Shown here one piece after another: positions 15,922 to 60,686 of a stretch of DNA of 64,000 bases. The notes under the pieces are model-generated. The model saw nothing but the letters and a program-made list of their open reading frames with translations. It had not been told where the DNA came from and made no database searches. Position 1 is the first letter of the stretch. Every line of letters begins with the position of its first letter. Origin of the DNA: Microvirga aerilata (lineage in GTDB: Bacteria > Pseudomonadota > Alphaproteobacteria > Rhizobiales > Beijerinckiaceae); assembly GCF_016743775.1 (NCBI RefSeq), contig NZ_JAEQMY010000006.1, forward strand, positions 62,001-126,000. The letters run 5' to 3'. A program made the position numbers and the translations under genes.

Positions 15922-15936
15922 TTAAGCCCGCGTTAA
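15922..15936. promoter_or_regulatory. CtrA box TTAA-N7-TTAA upstream of a GNAT gene
   Basis: TTAAGCCCGCGTTAA is an exact full CtrA recognition site, followed by CC as in the favoured TTAACC half-site. It ends 51 bp before the ATG of the GNAT gene. That distance suits activation or repression of its promoter. Confidence 0.55.
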
Positions 15937-15987: not shown

Positions 15988-16494
15988 ATGAGCGATCTTC
16001 TCGTCAGCATCCGTCACGCCAAGCCCGATGACGCTGCTGCTTTGTCCAAGGTTTTCGATGTGGCTTGGCGCGAGGCTTATCTCGGCATCATTCCGGGCCT
16101 CACCCTTGAGAAGATGTTCTCGCGCCGCAGCGAGCGCTGGTGGCGCTCCACGGTGTCCCGGGGCCGGCCGCTGGTGGTGCTGGATATCGGCCAGGGGGCG
16201 GCGGGCTATGCCTCCTATGGCCGCTGCCGGGATCGCTCCCTGCCGGCGAGGGGCGAGATCGACGAACTCTACCTGCTGCCGGAATACCAGGGTCTCGGCT
16301 TCGGCCGGCGCCTGTTCAAGGCTGTGCGCAACGACCTGCGGCACCGGGAGATGGACCGGTTCGTCGTGTGGGCGCTCGAGGACAACGAACGCGCCTGCGC
16401 GTTCTACGAGGGAATGGGCGGGCAGAAGGTCTCGCGGGTCGAGGAGCGCATTGGGGGCACGCCGCTGGCCAAGGTGGCCTACCTCTTCCGCTGA
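15988..16494 (+). CDS. GNAT-family N-acetyltransferase
   Basis: The 168-residue protein carries the acetyl-CoA motif ELYLLPEYQGLGFGRRLFKAV and the C-terminal NERACAFYEGMGGQKV. The architecture is like that of RimI-type or toxin-modifying acetyltransferases, and the substrate is unknown. It stands alone between the acnA terminator and ppa, with an exact CtrA box upstream. A weak hairpin (GCCGGGGCTTGCTCCGGC) follows at about 16563 with no T-run. Confidence 0.85.
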   Translation: MSDLLVSIRHAKPDDAAALSKVFDVAWREAYLGIIPGLTLEKMFSRRSERWWRSTVSRGRPLVVLDIGQGAAGYASYGRCRDRSLPARGEIDELYLLPEYQGLGFGRRLFKAVRNDLRHREMDRFVVWALEDNERACAFYEGMGGQKVSRVEERIGGTPLAKVAYLFR

Positions 16495-25121: not shown

Positions 25122-25136
25122 TTAAAGGACCCTTAA
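25122..25136. promoter_or_regulatory. CtrA box TTAA-N7-TTAA upstream of ftsK
   Basis: TTAAAGGACCCTTAA is an exact full CtrA site inside a longer dyad GGGTTAA/TTAACCC. It ends 59 bp before the ftsK ATG. FtsK is a division and chromosome-dimer protein, a natural target for the cell-cycle regulator. Confidence 0.62.
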
Positions 25137-25195
25137 CCCGGCAGCGCTAGCATCCTTGGCAACATTGTCCCGTCCACTGTTTTCAGAGTGGTTTG

Positions 25196-27778
25196 ATGCG
25201 TACGGCCCGCCGTTCTTCTTCCGCCTATGATGGCCTTTTCAGCGCCTTCCGCGGTTTCCTCGCCCGGCGGGCGCAGGAGCTGACAGGCCTGTGCCTGATC
25301 GCCCTCGCCGGAGCGGTCGCCGTGGCCCTGTCGACCTGGGCCGTCGACGACCCCAGCCTCAACAACGCCACCGATCTGCCCGTGCGCAATCTTCTCGGTT
25401 GGCCCGGCGCCATCGTGGCCGATCTGCTCATGCAGCTTCTGGGCTTGGGCGCCATTGCGGCCGTTATGCCTTTGGCGCTCTGGGGCTGGCGCCTCATGAA
25501 AACCGGCGAGCTCGGCCGCATGCAGCTGCGCCTCGCGCTGTGGGTCATCGGCTCGGGCGCGGCGACCGCACTGGCGAGCGCCCTGCCGCCCACGCAAAGC
25601 TGGCCCTTGCCCACGGGCCTTGGCGGCGTGGTCGGCGATGCGATCCTGGCCGGCGCCAAGGCGGTGACGGGCCTGTCCAGCGGCTCGGCCAGCGCGGTTC
25701 TGGGCTTCCTGTTCGCCGCCTTGGCCATCCTGAGCCTCAGCGCTGCCTGCGGCCTCGGCGCGGCGGATGAGAGGCACCACGAGGAGCCGGAGGATCCAGA
25801 GGAGGATCAGCCCGTCAGGCGCCGCAAGATCCAGGACTGGGACGAGACGGAGGATGCCGGCCACGACGAGCCGGGCTGGGGCATCGTGTCCCTGGGTGCC
25901 CTGGCCCATGGTGTTATGAGCCTGCGGGCGAGCGCCCGGCGCTGGAGCGAGGGCCGTCGCTCCGCTCCAGACGACGAATTCGAGACCGTGCCCGCTCCGG
26001 CCAAGCGCTCGGCCCGCCAGCCCGGCGCGATGCGGCGCGAGCCTGTTCTCGACGGGGCTCCCGCACGCAGGCCCGCACCGGCTTCCGTGCCGATGCATGA
26101 CGAGGACGACGCGCCCTGGGACGAGGATGACGTTCCCGCTCCGGCGGCACGGCTCGAGCCTGCTCCCACCCGCGTCGCGCCGGTGCCGGCGGCTCCGAAG
26201 CCCGGCAAGCGCATGGCCCGGGAGGCGCAGCCCTCTCTCCTCGACGAGGCGAACTACCAGCTGCCCCAGCTCAACCTGCTCGCCGAGCCGAAGCGGCCCG
26301 CAGCCCCTCTGGTTTCGGCCGAGGCCCTGGAGCAGAACGCCAACCTGCTCGAAGGCACCCTGGAGGATTTCGGGGTCAGGGGCGCCATCACCAAGGTCAA
26401 TCCCGGCCCTGTTGTGACGTTGTACGAGCTTGAGCCGGCGCCAGGGACGAAGTCGTCCCGCGTCATCTCCCTGGCGGACGACATTGCCCGCTCCATGAGC
26501 GCGGTCTCGGCCCGCGTGGCGGTGGTGCAGGGCCGCAACGCCATCGGCATCGAGCTGCCCAACCACAAGCGCGAGACCGTGTTCCTGCGCGAGCTTCTCG
26601 CCTCGCAGGACTTCGAAACCTCCAAGCAGAAGCTGGCGCTCTGCCTCGGCAAGACCATCGGCGGCGAGCCGGTGATCGCGGATCTTGCCCGCATGCCGCA
26701 CCTCCTGGTGGCCGGCACCACCGGCTCCGGCAAGTCGGTGGCGATCAACACCATGATCCTGTCGCTGGTCTACCGGCTCTCGCCCGCCGAGTGCCGCCTG
26801 ATCATGGTGGACCCCAAGATGCTGGAGCTGTCCGTCTACGACGGCATCCCGCATCTCCTCACCCCGGTGGTCACCGACCCCAAGAAGGCCGTGGTGGCGC
26901 TCAAATGGGCGGTGCGGGAAATGGAGGACCGCTACCGCAAGATGTCGAAGCTCGGGGTGCGCAACATCGACGGCTTCAACGCCCGCGTCGTCGAGGCTAA
27001 AGCCCGCGGCGAGACCATCACCCGCACGGTGCAGACAGGGTTCGACCGCGAGACGGGCGAAGCGGTCTACGAGGATGAGGTGATGGATCTCGATCCCTTG
27101 CCCTACATCGTTGTGATCGTGGACGAGATGGCCGACCTGATGATGGTGGCCGGCAAGGAGATCGAGGGCGCCATCCAGCGCCTGGCCCAGATGGCCAGAG
27201 CCGCCGGCATTCACGTGATCCTGGCAACCCAGCGGCCCAGCGTGGACGTGATCACCGGCACCATCAAGGCGAACTTCCCCACCCGCATCTCGTTCCAGGT
27301 CACCTCCAAGATCGACAGCCGCACGATCCTGGGCGAGATGGGCGCCGAGCAGCTCCTGGGCCAAGGCGACATGCTGTACATGGCCGGCGGCGGGCGCATC
27401 ACCCGCGTGCACGGACCCTTCTGCTCCGACGAGGAAGTCGAGAAGGTGGTGGCCCACCTCAAGCGCCAGGGCCGTCCGCAGTATCTGGAGGCCGTGACGG
27501 CCGATGAGGACGACGGCGGCGGTGCAGGCTCGGACACACCGGTCTTCGACCAGGGCGAGTTCGGCGCACCGGGCGGGGATCTGTACGACCAGGCGGTGGC
27601 CGTGGTGCTGCGGGACAAGAAGGCTTCGACGAGCTACATCCAGCGGCGCCTGCAGATCGGCTACAACCGGGCCGCCTCGCTCATGGAGCGCATGGAGAAC
27701 GAAGGCATCGTGGGACCTGCCAACCACGCCGGCAAACGCGAGATTCTGCTTGAAGCGCCCGGCATGGGAGAGGATTAA
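25196..27778 (+). CDS. ftsK: DNA translocase FtsK
   Basis: The 860-residue protein has four N-terminal membrane helices (about residues 30-180) that anchor it at the septum. A Pro/acidic linker follows (about 190-340). The RecA-type motor has Walker [34 protein letters not shown] as Walker B and [19 protein letters not shown]-terminal winged-helix gamma domain reads [22 protein letters not shown]. It pumps DNA at the septum and activates XerCD at dif. The ATG at 25196 is chosen over a TTG one codon earlier. Confidence 0.97.
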
Positions 27779-45220: not shown

Positions 45221-46102
45221 TCACGGATTCAACCGCCGGCACAGCCCGTCGAGCTGCTCCAGGGTCTTGTATTTGATGCGCAGCTCGCCGCCCTCCCCTT
45301 TGTGGTCGATGCTGACGGTGAGCCCGAGCACATCCTGGAGCGCCTTTTCAAGAGCGCGGGTGTCAGGATCCTTCTCCGTCTTCGAGGCCCTCGGCGCTTT
45401 GGCTTCCGCTTGCGACGATTGTGTGTCGCCCTGAGCGATCTCTTCGACCTGGCGGACACTCAGGCCCTCGTCGAGGACCCGCTTGGCCACCTGGACCGGA
45501 TTCTTGACCGAAAGCAGGGCGCGGCCATGGCCGGCCGTGAGCTTGCGCTCCATCAGGAGCTTGCGAACATCGGTGGGCAAATCGGCGAGGCGCAGCATGT
45601 TGGCGATATGGCTGCGGCTCTTGCCGATGATCTTCGAGAGGTTCTCCTGCGTATAGGAGAACTCGGCCATCAGGCGGGAATAGCCTTCCGACTCCTCGAT
45701 GGGATTGAGGTCGGCGCGCTGGACGTTCTCCAGGATGGCATATTCGAGCGAGGTCTTGTCATCGATGCTGACGATAACGACCGGGACCCGGTGCAGACCG
45801 GCCTTCTGGGCCGCGCGCCAGCGACGCTCGCCGGCCACGATCTCGAACTCGTCCGTGCTGTTCGAGATCGGCCGAACCACGATAGGCTGGATGATGCCGC
45901 GATCCTTGATCGACTGCGTCAATTCCTGCAGGTCGGCATCGTCGAATACCTTGCGGGGGTTGCGCGGGTTTGGGCGCAGGAACTCCACCGGCACGGAGCG
46001 TGGCGTGGAGCCCTTGCGCTCAAGGGTGCCGATCTCGTCTCCCACTTCGCCGATCAGCGCGGCCAATCCGCGGCCCAGGCGCGACTTACCTTCTTCTGCC
46101 AT
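45221..46102 (-). CDS. parB: Chromosome partitioning protein ParB
   Basis: The 293-residue CTP-dependent clamp binds parS and spreads. It has the N-terminal ParA-stimulating MAEEGKSRLGRGLAALIGE, the CTPase motif EIVAGERRWRAAQKAGL, and LEYAILENVQRADLNPIEE. The helix-turn-helix reads NLSKIIGKSRSHIANMLRL, and the C-terminal dimer domain contains GEGGELRIKYKTLEQLDGL. The ATG at 46102 is preferred. It lies 18 bp downstream of parA. Confidence 0.97.
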   Translation of the reverse strand: MAEEGKSRLGRGLAALIGEVGDEIGTLERKGSTPRSVPVEFLRPNPRNPRKVFDDADLQELTQSIKDRGIIQPIVVRPISNSTDEFEIVAGERRWRAAQKAGLHRVPVVIVSIDDKTSLEYAILENVQRADLNPIEESEGYSRLMAEFSYTQENLSKIIGKSRSHIANMLRLADLPTDVRKLLMERKLTAGHGRALLSVKNPVQVAKRVLDEGLSVRQVEEIAQGDTQSSQAEAKAPRASKTEKDPDTRALEKALQDVLGLTVSIDHKGEGGELRIKYKTLEQLDGLCRRLNP

Positions 46103-46120
46103 GGTGTCTCTCAAAAGGTT

Positions 46121-46960
46121 TTATGCGGCACGCAGGGCGCGTTCGCGCTGGATAACTTCGGATGCGAGGCGCAGATAGGCTTGGGAGCCGGCGCATTTCA
46201 AATCGTAAAGCAGAACCGGCTTGCCATGGGATGGCGCTTCCGACACCCGGACGTTGCGCGGAATCATGGTCTCGTAAACTTTGCTGCCCATGAACTGGCG
46301 CACATCGGCCACCACCTGGCCCGACAGGTTGTTACGCGGGTCGAACATGGTGAGCACGACCCCGTGGATGGTGAGCTGGGGATTCAGGGCGGAACGCACC
46401 TGCTCGACGGTCTTGAGCAACTGACTGAGACCCTCCAAGGCAAAAAATTCGCACTGCAATGGCACCAACACTGCGTCAGCGGCGGTCAAGGCATTGATGG
46501 TCAAAAGGTTGAGCGAAGGCGGGCAATCGATCAAAATATAGGTAAAGGGTTCGCTTACTTCCGAGGCTGAAAGGCCCCGAATGGCCGACTGCAGGCGATG
46601 CACCCGGTTACGCTCGTTTGCGATCTCCAACTCGACGCCGAGAAGGTCCAGGGTCGAGGGCGCCACCGACAGACCAGGCACGACCGTCTCTGTAATGCTC
46701 TCGGCCAGTGACGCCTCACCACTGAGCACATGATAGGTCGAGATTTGCCGGCTCTTGCGATCGATGCCCAAGCCGGTCGACGCATTGCCTTGCGGATCGA
46801 GGTCGATGATCAGCACCTTCTCGCCGATGGCGGCGAGCGCCGTTCCCAGATTGATGGCCGTCGTCGTCTTGCCGACACCACCCTTCTGGTTGGCGAGCAC
46901 GAGAACGCGCGGCTGGAGTCCCCGCGTCCCTGCTTCGGATCCGTTGCGGTCGGTCATCAT
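46121..46960 (-). CDS. parA: Chromosome partitioning ATPase ParA
   Basis: The 279-residue P-loop ATPase has the deviant Walker A LANQKGGVGKTTTAINLG, DLDPQGNASTGLG as the A' motif and YILIDCPPSLNLLTINAL. It binds DNA non-specifically and pulls ParB-parS complexes, separating new origins. The first ATG overlaps the rsmG stop as ATGATGA; a second ATG one codon later is equally possible. The mnmE-mnmG-rsmG-parA-parB order is the standard origin-proximal cluster. Confidence 0.97.
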   Translation of the reverse strand: MMTDRNGSEAGTRGLQPRVLVLANQKGGVGKTTTAINLGTALAAIGEKVLIIDLDPQGNASTGLGIDRKSRQISTYHVLSGEASLAESITETVVPGLSVAPSTLDLLGVELEIANERNRVHRLQSAIRGLSASEVSEPFTYILIDCPPSLNLLTINALTAADAVLVPLQCEFFALEGLSQLLKTVEQVRSALNPQLTIHGVVLTMFDPRNNLSGQVVADVRQFMGSKVYETMIPRNVRVSEAPSHGKPVLLYDLKCAGSQAYLRLASEVIQRERALRAA

Positions 46961-47583
46961 GAATGGCTCTCGATGGAGGTTATGCGAAGAATCCTGGCCT
47001 GGGAATCGGTCAGAGAGGGCAGGACATCCGTGTCGAATGTCCACCTTTTCCGGGCCTCGGTCAATTCAATCTCGGCGTCACGTCCTTTGGGAAACAGGCC
47101 GATTGTCCCCGCTTTCAACAAAGGCTCGGTCCATTCCAGGAGCATGGTGAGCGAGGCGAGAGCCCGCGCCGAGACCACATCCGCCTTGCCGATAAAGCTT
47201 GGAATGACGGTCTCGAGCCGGGCCTCATGCACTGTGGCACCAGCATCGGTCAGGCGTGAAACATGCCGGAGGAAGGAGCATTTGCGCGAATTGCTCTCGA
47301 CGAGGTGCACCTTGAGCCCCCTCTCCGCCCCCGCGATGGCGAGCACGAGACCGGGAAATCCGGCACCTGAACCGAGATCTACCCAAGTCTGGGCCTCAGG
47401 CGCGAGGCTTAAAAGCTGCAAGGAGTCGACGATGTGTCGCTCCCAGATCTGGTCGAGGGTTGCCGGCCCCACAAGATTCTTGATCGCCTGCCAACGTCGG
47501 AGCTCGCGCTCTAGCAGCTCAAGTCTCTCGATTGTTTCACGTGAAACATTCTGTGCGGGTAGGCTGCCAAGAAACGGCTTCAT
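46957..47583 (-). CDS. rsmG: 16S rRNA (guanine527-N7) methyltransferase
   Basis: The 208-residue SAM-dependent enzyme (formerly GidB) methylates G527 of 16S rRNA. It has the SAM motif WVDLGSGAGFPGLVLAI and LVESNSRKCSFLRHV, and PKGRDAEIELTEA at the end of the fold. The ATG at 47583 overlaps the mnmG stop (TGATG); a GTG one codon earlier is an alternative. The peptide NVSRET near the N terminus is encoded by a parS site. Confidence 0.95.
   Translation of the reverse strand: MKPFLGSLPAQNVSRETIERLELLERELRRWQAIKNLVGPATLDQIWERHIVDSLQLLSLAPEAQTWVDLGSGAGFPGLVLAIAGAERGLKVHLVESNSRKCSFLRHVSRLTDAGATVHEARLETVIPSFIGKADVVSARALASLTMLLEWTEPLLKAGTIGLFPKGRDAEIELTEARKRWTFDTDVLPSLTDSQARILRITSIESHS
47533..47548. 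other. parS: parS site 1, inside rsmG
   Basis: TGTTTCACGTGAAACA is a perfect 16-bp parS palindrome. It lies within the rsmG coding sequence, where it specifies the residues around NVSRET, a placement seen in many bacteria. Confidence 0.95.
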
Positions 47584-49523: not shown

Positions 49524-49539
49524 TGTTTCACGTGAAACA
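49524..49539. other. parS: parS site 2, between mnmG and mnmE
   Basis: A second perfect TGTTTCACGTGAAACA sits in the 200-bp non-coding gap. Perfect symmetry continues five bases beyond each end, making a 26-bp palindrome (49519-49544). A separate 8-bp hairpin CCTGTGCA/TGCACAGG follows at 49556-49577. Confidence 0.95.
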
Positions 49540-58327: not shown

Positions 58328-59365
58328 TCAAGCCCCCCGGACGCGGGCGAGAAGCTGCGTCACGTGCTCGGTCGGCGTCTCCGGCAGGATGCCGTGCCCG
58401 AGATTGAAAATGTGCGGCCGCCCGCGCACCGCCTCCAGAATGCGGTCCACGCCCTTCTCCAGCGCCTCCCCTCCGGCGATCAGCGCCAGCGGGTCGAGGT
58501 TGCCTTGCGTTGCCACGTGGGCCGGCAGGCCAGGCAGCACGGCGGCGGGATCGAGCGTCCAGTCGAGGGCCAGCCCGTTGCCGATGCCGGCCGAGGCGAA
58601 GCGATGAAGGTGCGAACCGCCTCCGCGCACGAACACGATCACCTTGGCCTGCGGCCGCGCTGCCTTCAGTCCCTCCACCATGCGGCGGATCGGATTGAGC
58701 GACAGCCGGTCGAACAGCGCCGGCGGCAGGGCCGAGCCGAAGCTCTCGAAGATCTGGACGGCTTCCGCGCCCGCATCGATCTGGCGGATGAGGTAGGCGG
58801 TGGAGGCCCGCACCAGCCGGTCGATGAGAGCGTCCATGAAGGCGGGGTCGCGATAGGCGGTCAGCCGGGCCGGAGCCTGGTCCGGTGTGCCCTTGCCGGC
58901 GATCATGTAGCTCGCCACGGTCCAGGGCGCGCCGCAGAAGCCGAGTAGGGTGGTCTCCTTCGGAAGCGATTGCCGCAAGCGGTCGAGGGTCTCGAAGACC
59001 GGCTCCAACCGCTCCATCGGTAGTTCGTCGGCAAGCCGGGAAAAGTCTTTGGTCTCGGTTACCGGATCGAGCTTCGGCCCCTCGTTCTCGACGAAGCGGA
59101 CCTCCTGGCCCAGGGCATGGGGAATGACCAGGATGTCGGAAAACAGGATCGAGGCATCGAAGCCGAAGCGACGGATCGGCTGAAGGGTGACTTCCTCCGC
59201 AAGCCTCGGGTTGTAGCAGAGATCGAGGAAGGAGCCGGCCTGCTTCCGGGTCTCACGGTATTCCGGCAGATAGCGACCGGCCTGACGCATGATCCAGACT
59301 GGCAGGGGCCAGACCGGCTCGCCGTTCAGCACGCGCAAAATCGCTTTGGTGGGACGCTCGCTCAC
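58328..59365 (-). CDS. hemE: Uroporphyrinogen decarboxylase
   Basis: The 345-residue cytoplasmic enzyme decarboxylates uroporphyrinogen III to coproporphyrinogen III. It has the signature PVWIMRQAGRYLPEYRETR near the N terminus, DASILFSDILVIPHALG with the catalytic aspartate, and GFCGAPWTVASYMI. The start is a GTG at 59365 with GAGAGGG upstream. Its upstream region is the presumed replication origin, as in Caulobacter and Rickettsia. Confidence 0.97.
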   Translation of the reverse strand: MSERPTKAILRVLNGEPVWPLPVWIMRQAGRYLPEYRETRKQAGSFLDLCYNPRLAEEVTLQPIRRFGFDASILFSDILVIPHALGQEVRFVENEGPKLDPVTETKDFSRLADELPMERLEPVFETLDRLRQSLPKETTLLGFCGAPWTVASYMIAGKGTPDQAPARLTAYRDPAFMDALIDRLVRASTAYLIRQIDAGAEAVQIFESFGSALPPALFDRLSLNPIRRMVEGLKAARPQAKVIVFVRGGGSHLHRFASAGIGNGLALDWTLDPAAVLPGLPAHVATQGNLDPLALIAGGEALEKGVDRILEAVRGRPHIFNLGHGILPETPTEHVTQLLARVRGA

Positions 59366-59476
59366 AGGCCCTCTCTTATAAATATAATCTTTGAATCTAA
59401 GAATCTGATGTTTCTCTTGGACCGTGAATCACGAAGCCGCAACCTCGTCCACAACCCGTCCACACGGGGCAGGGCC

Positions 59477-59491
59477 TTAACCCTTCATTAA
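59477..59491. promoter_or_regulatory. CtrA box a in oriC
   Basis: TTAACCCTTCATTAA is an exact TTAA-N7-TTAA site, lying in the hemE-proximal half of the gap, where it could also affect the hemE promoter. Confidence 0.7.
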
Positions 59492-59535
59492 GGGCTGGGG
59501 CAGGCCCGCCACAATCCTTTCCGAATTCTTAAATC

Positions 59536-59550
59536 TTAACAGCCCGTTAA
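59536..59550. promoter_or_regulatory. CtrA box b in oriC
   Basis: TTAACAGCCCGTTAA is a second exact site. Two further TTAA half-sites flank it at 59529-59532 and 59557-59560, at non-canonical spacings, in an AT-rich tract. Confidence 0.7.
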
Positions 59551-59855
59551 TGGATGTTAACGATGTCTGAATCGGGTCCGGCCGGGTGATTCGTGCCGGA
59601 TTCTCCCAAATCGGGTACCGGTCGATCCCACATCAGGGAGTCCTGTGCATGGTTTTGGCTGAATCCCACAGGCCCCTGTTCTGGACCTCCCGAACCAGGC
59701 GATCTATCCACACTAATCGACTCCTTGAGCATCGGGCCCGGGAGAAGTTGCCTTCCTGGAATCCATCAGTGCTCTTTGTCTCTTAGAAGAGTGCATCGTG
59801 CGGAACACCGGATCCACTGTTTAGCCCGACGCGTTAGCCCTGGAGGACCCTTGCC

Positions 59856-60686
59856 GTGGGACGCAGCTACTTTCACCTCCACCTCGTCTCCGACTCGACG
59901 GGCGAAACCCTGATCACCGTCGCCCGCGCGGTGGTCGCCCAGTATGAGGGTGTTGCGGCCATCGAGCATGTCTACCCGCTCGTGCGCTCCAACACCCAGC
60001 TGGAACGGGTGATCAGCGAAATCGAAACCGCGCCGGGCATCGTCCTCTACACCCTGGTCGAGCACGACTTGGCAAGCCGCCTCGAGGAGGTGTGCCGCAA
60101 CACGGGCTCGCCTCACCTGTCGGTGCTCGAGCCCGTTCACTCGCTGCTGTCCTCCTATCTCGGAACCCATTCGACCGCCCGGCCCGGCGCGCAGCACATG
60201 CTGAACGCGGAATACTTCAAGCGCATCGATGCCATGAACTTCACCCTGCTCCATGACGACGGTCATCTCCCCCATGACCTGGACGAGGCGGATGTGATCC
60301 TCGTGGGCGTCAGCCGGACCTCCAAGACGCCGACGGGGATTTATCTCGCCAATCGCGGGCTGAAGACCACGAACATTCCCCTCGTGCCCGGCGTGCCGCC
60401 GCCGCAGGTTCTGGAAACGGCCCGAAGAGCCCTGATCGTCGGCCTCGTGGCGACCCCTGAGCGCATCGTCCAGATCCGGCAGAACCGGCTCCTCAGCCTC
60501 AATGCCGACGACGACACCTCTTACGTCGACCGGGAGGCGGTGGCGGAGGAGATCGCGGTTTCGCGGCGGCTCTTTGCCCGCAACGGCTGGCCGGTGATCG
60601 ACGTGACCCGCCGCTCCATCGAGGAAACGGCGGCGGCCATCATCGATCTCTACCGCGACCACCGTCTGCGCTTCATTGCGGAGTAG
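59856..60686 (+). CDS. Pyruvate,water dikinase / PPDK regulatory kinase-phosphorylase (DUF299)
   Basis: The 276-residue bifunctional enzyme phosphorylates its target dikinase with ADP and reverses this by phosphorolysis. It shows [21 protein letters not shown] and the P-loop-like [21 protein letters not shown], then [19 protein letters not shown]. It corresponds to RP001 of Rickettsia and YdiA/PpsR of E. coli. The start is a GTG at 59856 with GGAGG upstream. It is the first gene to the right of the presumed origin. Confidence 0.93.

Follow-up and report, generated by a model that had tools for sequence, protein, structure and literature searches.

The window analysed here is a stretch of 64,000 nucleotides (G000:C349:62001-126000) from a 179-kb contig, C349, of a draft genome of 6.83 Mb; judged by the PPSRP gene, the named species closest to it belong to Microvirga (Hyphomicrobiales). 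Within it, an intergenic region of 490 bp and 54% GC (59366-59855) separates two divergent genes: hemE, for uroporphyrinogen decarboxylase, on the minus strand (58328-59365; TIGR01464, 384.9 bits against a cut-off of 302.95), and the PPSRP gene, also termed RP001-type or COG1806, on the plus strand (59856-60686; NF003742, 341.3 bits against a cut-off of 225). These profile scores bear out the initial annotation, which had described a 490-bp non-coding gap flanked as at the Caulobacter and Rickettsia oriC. Further out, translations named by eye are maf-, aroE-, coaE-, dnaQ- and secB-like to the right of the gap and hemJ- and rho-like to the left.

The origins of Caulobacter and Rickettsia share these flanking genes, and the part of the 2007 Wolbachia origin paper drawn on here gives criteria for such origins, CtrA sites being one of several that are not all required (PMC1914354). 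Set against them, the hemE-PPSRP gap presents the following: firstly, it adjoins hemE and COG1806, where the criterion names one and/or the other; secondly, its AT content exceeds that of the genome (46%, as compared to ~35% in the window) and reaches 80% in its most AT-rich 40 bp (59376-59415), in keeping with the AT-rich tracts noted initially; thirdly, its three TCCACA-type boxes make DnaA boxes more frequent here than in the other intergenic stretches of the contig; fourthly, it contains two exact CtrA boxes. The gap is very probably an oriC of the hemE type, a known kind of origin.

A partitioning system, parABS, lies 10-14 kb to the left of the gap. It comprises parB (45221-46114, minus strand; ParB_N, HTH_ParB and ParB_C above Pfam cut-offs), the adjoining parA (46121-47044, minus strand; AAA_31, 198 bits) and two exact parS sites, TGTTTCACGTGAAACA, at 47533-47548 (C349:109533) and 49524-49539 (C349:111524). 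The two parS sites stand 10-12 kb from the gap beside parA/parB and rsmG- and mnmG-like genes, and this region is likely the chromosome centromere.

DnaA-type boxes and GANTC sites in the gap

Only one box in the gap lies within one mismatch of the DnaA consensus TTATCCACA: the near-consensus box that the initial annotation had counted, CTATCCACA on the plus strand at 59704-59712. Eight of its nine positions are invariant among 36 Microvirga gaps (described below), and many relatives have TTATCCACA itself at this place. Towards hemE, two weaker DnaA-like boxes stand in tandem on the plus strand, a pair that had escaped the initial annotation: TCGTCCACA (59445-59453; two mismatches from TTATCCACA, with a conserved GTCCACA core) and, 11 bp from it, CCGTCCACA (59456-59464; three mismatches). 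Our script's own gene calls gave 52 intergenic stretches of 150 bp or more on the contig; of these, the hemE gap alone contained two or more TCCACA words, and no bigger DnaA cluster was seen elsewhere on the 179-kb contig.

The gap also contains ten GANTC (CcrM) sites between 59393 and 59763 (at 59393, 59401, 59426, 59569, 59588, 59599, 59638, 59661, 59719 and 59759), for which no count had been given before. This is the maximum of the 179-kb contig, whose mean is 0.78 per 490 bp; among its intergenic stretches of at least 250 bp, the density of 20.4 per kb is the highest, followed by 7.5.

CtrA boxes in the window and in the genome

Both TTAA-N7-TTAA boxes reported in the initial annotation are exact: box 1 (TTAACCCTTCATTAA, 59477-59491), which starts 12 bp past the GTCCACA pair, and box 2 (TTAACAGCCCGTTAA, 59536-59550). 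Two further TTAA pairs overlap box 2. One, with N3 spacing (59529-59539), is a possible extra half-site, present with invariant columns in 36 of 36 Microvirga gaps; the other, with N6 spacing (59547-59560), is a possible off-spacing half-site, present in 22 of 36.

The window as a whole holds four exact boxes, whereas its shuffled versions average 0.01 and none of 100 reached four. Across the 6.83-Mb genome the exact box occurs 44 times, or ~0.4 per 64 kb, as compared to 12 occurrences of the backwards control pattern. The initial figure of 0.06 boxes per 64 kb by chance was a composition estimate and does not describe this real density, but the accompanying judgement that the pair is striking holds: the two boxes of the gap are the only ones less than 100 bp apart among the 44, and the next closest pair is separated by 885 bp.

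The remaining boxes of the window lie elsewhere. That at 25122-25136 ends ~56 bp before the called start of an ftsK-like gene (25193-27778), a position that suggests CtrA control of ftsK; that at 15922-15936 is flanked by an aconitase-like gene and by a small GNAT-like ORF whose start is at 15988.

Conservation among Microvirga and Methylobacterium relatives

The initial annotation had called for this gap to be aligned across related genera. Searching 61 genomes with the gap DNA gave 39 matches, in all 37 Microvirga genomes and 2 of 24 others; some of these matches are partial, and that in G026 covers a dispersed repeat only. To the best 80 of 538 listed PPSRP matches in named genomes we added 30 loci from the gap-DNA search. 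Four of these 110 loci, in which hemE was not found beside PPSRP in the stretch, were dropped, and collapsing 18 identical sequences among the 106 extracted gaps left 88 distinct ones, of which 36 are from Microvirga; the other 52 include one from a metagenome assembly that bears the title Microvirga.

Exact CtrA boxes were found in 33 of the 36 Microvirga gaps (both boxes in 29 and one in 4, which leaves 3 with neither) and in 47 of the 52 other named gaps, which are mostly from Methylobacterium and Methylorubrum. The Methylorubrum gaps carry a single box. Half-sites are better conserved than the spacers between them. For box 1, column conservation among the 36 Microvirga gaps is 0.97 in the half-sites and 0.75 in the spacer; for box 2, it is 1.00 and 0.97 in the two half-sites and 0.89 in the spacer; the baseline over gap positions 1-362 is 0.83. 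Distances to the DnaA box are nearly fixed as well, at 226-228 bp for box 1 and 168-169 bp for box 2 in Microvirga; among the 47 other named gaps that have a box, 38 place it 202-205 bp away. When 25 representatives were aligned, the one box of Methylobacterium lined up with box 1, and those of Enterovirga, Chelatococcus and some genomes further removed, in other families, lined up with box 2, although alignment at such long range is uncertain.

All 36 Microvirga gaps contain the exact 11-bp TCCACA pair, as compared to only 2 of the 52 other named gaps. Of the ten GANTC sites, six persist in 33-36 of the 36 Microvirga gaps and two more in 25 and 19, while two are private (1 of 36).

Several further observations concern this alignment. 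A near-invariant block at 59400-59430, identical in 36 of 36 gaps at most positions, contains two GANTC sites and lies ~35-65 bp upstream of hemE; it may be a promoter or an origin element. An insert at 59728-59842 is variable, being missing from 22 of the 36 Microvirga gaps, each shorter than 400 bp. Over its right part it resembles a short repeat that is dispersed through many other Microvirga genomes and has a single weak second match within the genome studied here. Lastly, the origins of Microvirga aerophila (L027/L045), M. alba (L029/L044) and M. pudoricolor (L047) have no exact CtrA box and, as far as sequence can tell, are natural cases of box loss inside one genus.

CtrA boxes across the order

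The wider survey searched for PPSRP in 24 genomes, one per other family (21 matched), and in 160 genomes drawn from the order (136 matched). From 138 genomes with a PPSRP match we examined 108, namely the 21 family genomes, 27 taken by score and 60 taken for family spread, this last group being picked before its gaps were read; a weaker second PPSRP match in G058 was left out. Twelve of the 108 loci were dropped since hemE was not found beside PPSRP in the stretch, which left 96 gaps, that of our own genome included.

An exact CtrA box is present in 38 of these 96 gaps, as compared to 1.39 expected under a first-order Markov model, and at least one occurs in 17 of 40 families. The spacing is strict: while N7 pairs of TTAA were found in 38 gaps, every other spacing from N2 to N13 was found in 0-5, and nine control AT words at N7 spacing occurred in 1-6 gaps each. 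Box density is 1.04 per kb in the gaps as compared to one site in 258 kb of flanking DNA, a contrast that flatters the gaps because the flanks are mostly coding. Exact boxes, the only kind scored, are missing from 58 of the 96 gaps, whole sampled families among them (for instance f18, f20, f24, f30 and f31).

The other origin-type words are enriched in the same 96 gaps. TCCACA occurs 196 times against an expectation of 20 and ranks first of 60 anagrams, and GANTC occurs 317 times against 199. Among same-strand TCCACA pairs no more than 40 bp apart, 13 of 19 are spaced by 10 or 11 bp, in 10 families, a spacing that would fit DnaA filaments.

A single origin of the box trait was considered and rejected: on a PPSRP tree of 107 rows box presence needs 21 changes, against a shuffled mean of 35, so it appears inherited and clustered but patchy. 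This was a quick tree of the order loci and 11 named loci, in which 36 of 104 inner branches are starred, and the starred branches alone force only 8 changes.

Probable direct CtrA control, or a role in transcription of the flanking genes

Taken at the level of sequence, these data make it probable that the gap is an oriC at which phosphorylated CtrA directly represses initiation. The origin reading draws on the flanking genes, the conserved DnaA-type array, the CtrA boxes, the GANTC cluster, parABS and the chromosome-wide polarity of a complete Microvirga chromosome (below). That CtrA gates initiation here, as the initial annotation had suggested, gains from the conservation of the half-sites and from the strict N7 spacing across families, and direct CtrA control of the gap is likely.

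The same boxes could instead serve transcription of hemE and/or on the PPSRP side within a gap that is nonetheless oriC. Such an arrangement would suit a region lying between divergent genes; the box at 25122 ends ~56 bp before the called start of the ftsK-like gene, and in the survey a box falls near one gene start in families f28 (position 3), f44 (42-65, two genomes) and f40 (~390-400, three genomes). However, in Microvirga and Methylobacterium it is the distance to the DnaA box that is held, whereas the distance to the gene start varies with inserts, and a lone promoter box would look different from a pair of boxes set between DnaA-type sites. We consider it unlikely that the boxes act on transcription and not on replication; the two roles may coexist.

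Strand composition around the gap

By the initial annotation, a skew minimum elsewhere would speak against the origin, and here the data are off by tens of kilobases. On our contig, going from the gap towards PPSRP, the polarity of GGGNAGGG switches after ~12-15 kb (interval 7-18 kb) and the cumulative G-C minimum is reached after 24 kb. On the complete Microvirga chromosome G029, 40 sampled 20-kb stretches showed GGGNAGGG polarity flipping near 4.25-4.34 and 2.06-2.17 Mb, where the hemE gap maps to 4.354 Mb and the point opposite it to 2.15 Mb. At finer resolution, the switch falls 11-21 kb from the gap towards PPSRP (4.333-4.343 Mb) and the cumulative G-C minimum 40 kb from it in the same direction (4.314 Mb).

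Of the polar 8-mers trained on G029, only GGGCAGGG passed the cut-off; its best change point in 11 genomes lies ~6-25 kb to the PPSRP side in seven, 31-44 kb to that side in two, and at or beside the gap in two. The 2-log-unit interval includes the gap in 7 of the 11 and excludes it in our own genome, G017, G020 and G031, and a pooled fit, in which orthologous genes are reused, prefers +13.7 kb by 15 units. Skew at fourfold sites, corrected for gene strand, gives a weak signal, with the wrong sign in G002. In 9 of 11 genomes its optimum falls to the PPSRP side, and a switch placed at the gap scores within 2 log units of that optimum in 4 of 11. The polarity switch falls at C349:128000-146000 and on the same side in relatives, ~6-44 kb from the gap in 9 of 11 Microvirga genomes.

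Composition agrees with the gap to tens of kilobases only, and it therefore places the origin in the neighbourhood, ~10-40 kb off the gap itself. This offset to the PPSRP side is the weakest point of the oriC reading. It could mean that the functional origin lies 10-40 kb to the PPSRP side and that the hemE gap is a conserved regulatory region nearby, as the switch and the skew minima in most of the 11 genomes would have it. Yet two or more TCCACA words occur in none of the other 51 intergenic stretches (150 bp or longer) of the 179-kb contig, the largest stretch on the PPSRP side (C349:126269-127122) has no TCCACA and one GANTC, and the order-wide survey shows an excess of TCCACA in the hemE gap; moreover, in several alphaproteobacteria skew alone is insufficient to place an origin, according to the portion of the Wolbachia study used here (PMC1914354). 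We regard a displaced origin as improbable, and we retain the gap as oriC: it is the one intergenic stretch of the contig with the origin hallmarks, and in Caulobacter this same gap is where the origin has been mapped, as given in that portion of the study (PMC1914354).

That the boxes reflect chance or shared ancestry without function is very improbable: close relatives are not independent and three Microvirga gaps have no exact box, but spacing is N7 only in 17 families and the half-sites outlast their spacers.

A proposed model for initiation at the gap

The proteins that such control would call on are encoded in the genome. CtrA is encoded on contig C318 (NF045991, 422.9 bits against a cut-off of 350) and matches the Caulobacter CtrA sequence at 83%; a ChpT-family gene lies ~2.4 kb from ctrA on the opposite strand (G000:C318:17034-20505). 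The genome also encodes GcrA, one DnaA and one N6/N4 methylase that, like CcrM, has a RAMA domain.

From the computed sites, their conservation and this gene set we infer binding, repression and methylation timing as follows. DnaA would assemble on an array running from a helically phased pair of GTCCACA words at its hemE end to the YTATCCACA box at its PPSRP end, and phosphorylated CtrA would occupy both TTAA-N7-TTAA boxes between these DnaA-type sites. As box 1 starts so close to the DnaA-like pair, CtrA would exclude DnaA or stop the array from closing, and initiation would become possible only once CtrA had been removed or dephosphorylated. The two boxes, 59 bp apart, might allow CtrA dimers to cooperate. 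With its dense GANTC sites, the origin would pass through fully methylated and hemimethylated states, which would provide a mark of recent replication. At the Caulobacter origin, Cori, GANTC sites provide a methylation-state input, and by analogy the GANTC density of the gap suggests such an input here.

Comparison with known origins

Although the hemE-type oriC is known, the breadth of CtrA boxes in this order appears to be undocumented in the open-access literature, where we found no report of CtrA at a Methylobacterium or Microvirga origin. What makes this breadth notable is that the order's model species reportedly has no such boxes, and box-bearing gaps include those of the free-living genera Methylobacterium and Microvirga. 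Sinorhizobium meliloti belongs to the same order as Microvirga. The initial annotation had cautioned that CtrA cannot be assumed to act at the origin in Rhizobiales, and rightly so: the sections of the S. meliloti study used here report a chromosomal origin without CtrA motif or CtrA binding, where the Microvirga gap has two boxes, and a CtrA that is needed for coupling replication to division (Pini 2015, PMC4433202). Because this published origin is without CtrA, the predicted presence of CtrA at the Microvirga origin would be a difference inside the order (PMC4433202). For Brucella abortus, an older study reported, in the part cited, no binding of CtrA at the origin (PMC2877005).

On balance, we lean towards direct CtrA control of the origin being widespread and old in Hyphomicrobiales, gained and lost many times, with Sinorhizobium a derived exception and not the rule. 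The survey makes it possible to ask whether the coupling of CtrA to the origin is ancestral and what its loss might allow, for example endoreduplication in symbiotic bacteroids.

Outside the order, Hyphomonas neptunium is not a member of Hyphomicrobiales. A CtrA ChIP-seq signal adjoining its chromosomal origin is described in the excerpt consulted, so that binding there is measured while in Microvirga it is predicted (PMC7200025). The Rickettsia prowazekii oriC, of a distant lineage, resembles the Microvirga gap in having the same flanks and CtrA sites reported by Brassinga 2002, and CtrA sites are also predicted at the origins of Wolbachia and its relatives, to follow the portions of the two papers used here (PMC1914354, PMC4468827, the Wolbachia predictions being from the former).

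Among the closest known systems is Cori of Caulobacter crescentus, from whose strict definition the Microvirga gap departs in several respects. Cori has five CtrA sites, whereas the gap has two exact boxes and one N6 variant; no TGATCCACA G-box occurs in the gap within one mismatch, and the IHF consensus WATCA-N5-WTR has no exact match on either strand; the gap has instead the 11-bp GTCCACA pair and one YTATCCACA box. The Cori sites themselves stand beside weak DnaA boxes or overlap them, and their proposed role is to keep DnaA away; weakening all five perturbed the replication programme only mildly in laboratory culture, as told in the sections cited (PMC4468827). What the two loci have in common, going by the same partial sources, is a site between hemE and COG1806/PPSRP with TTAA-N7-TTAA boxes beside weak DnaA sites (PMC1914354, PMC4468827).
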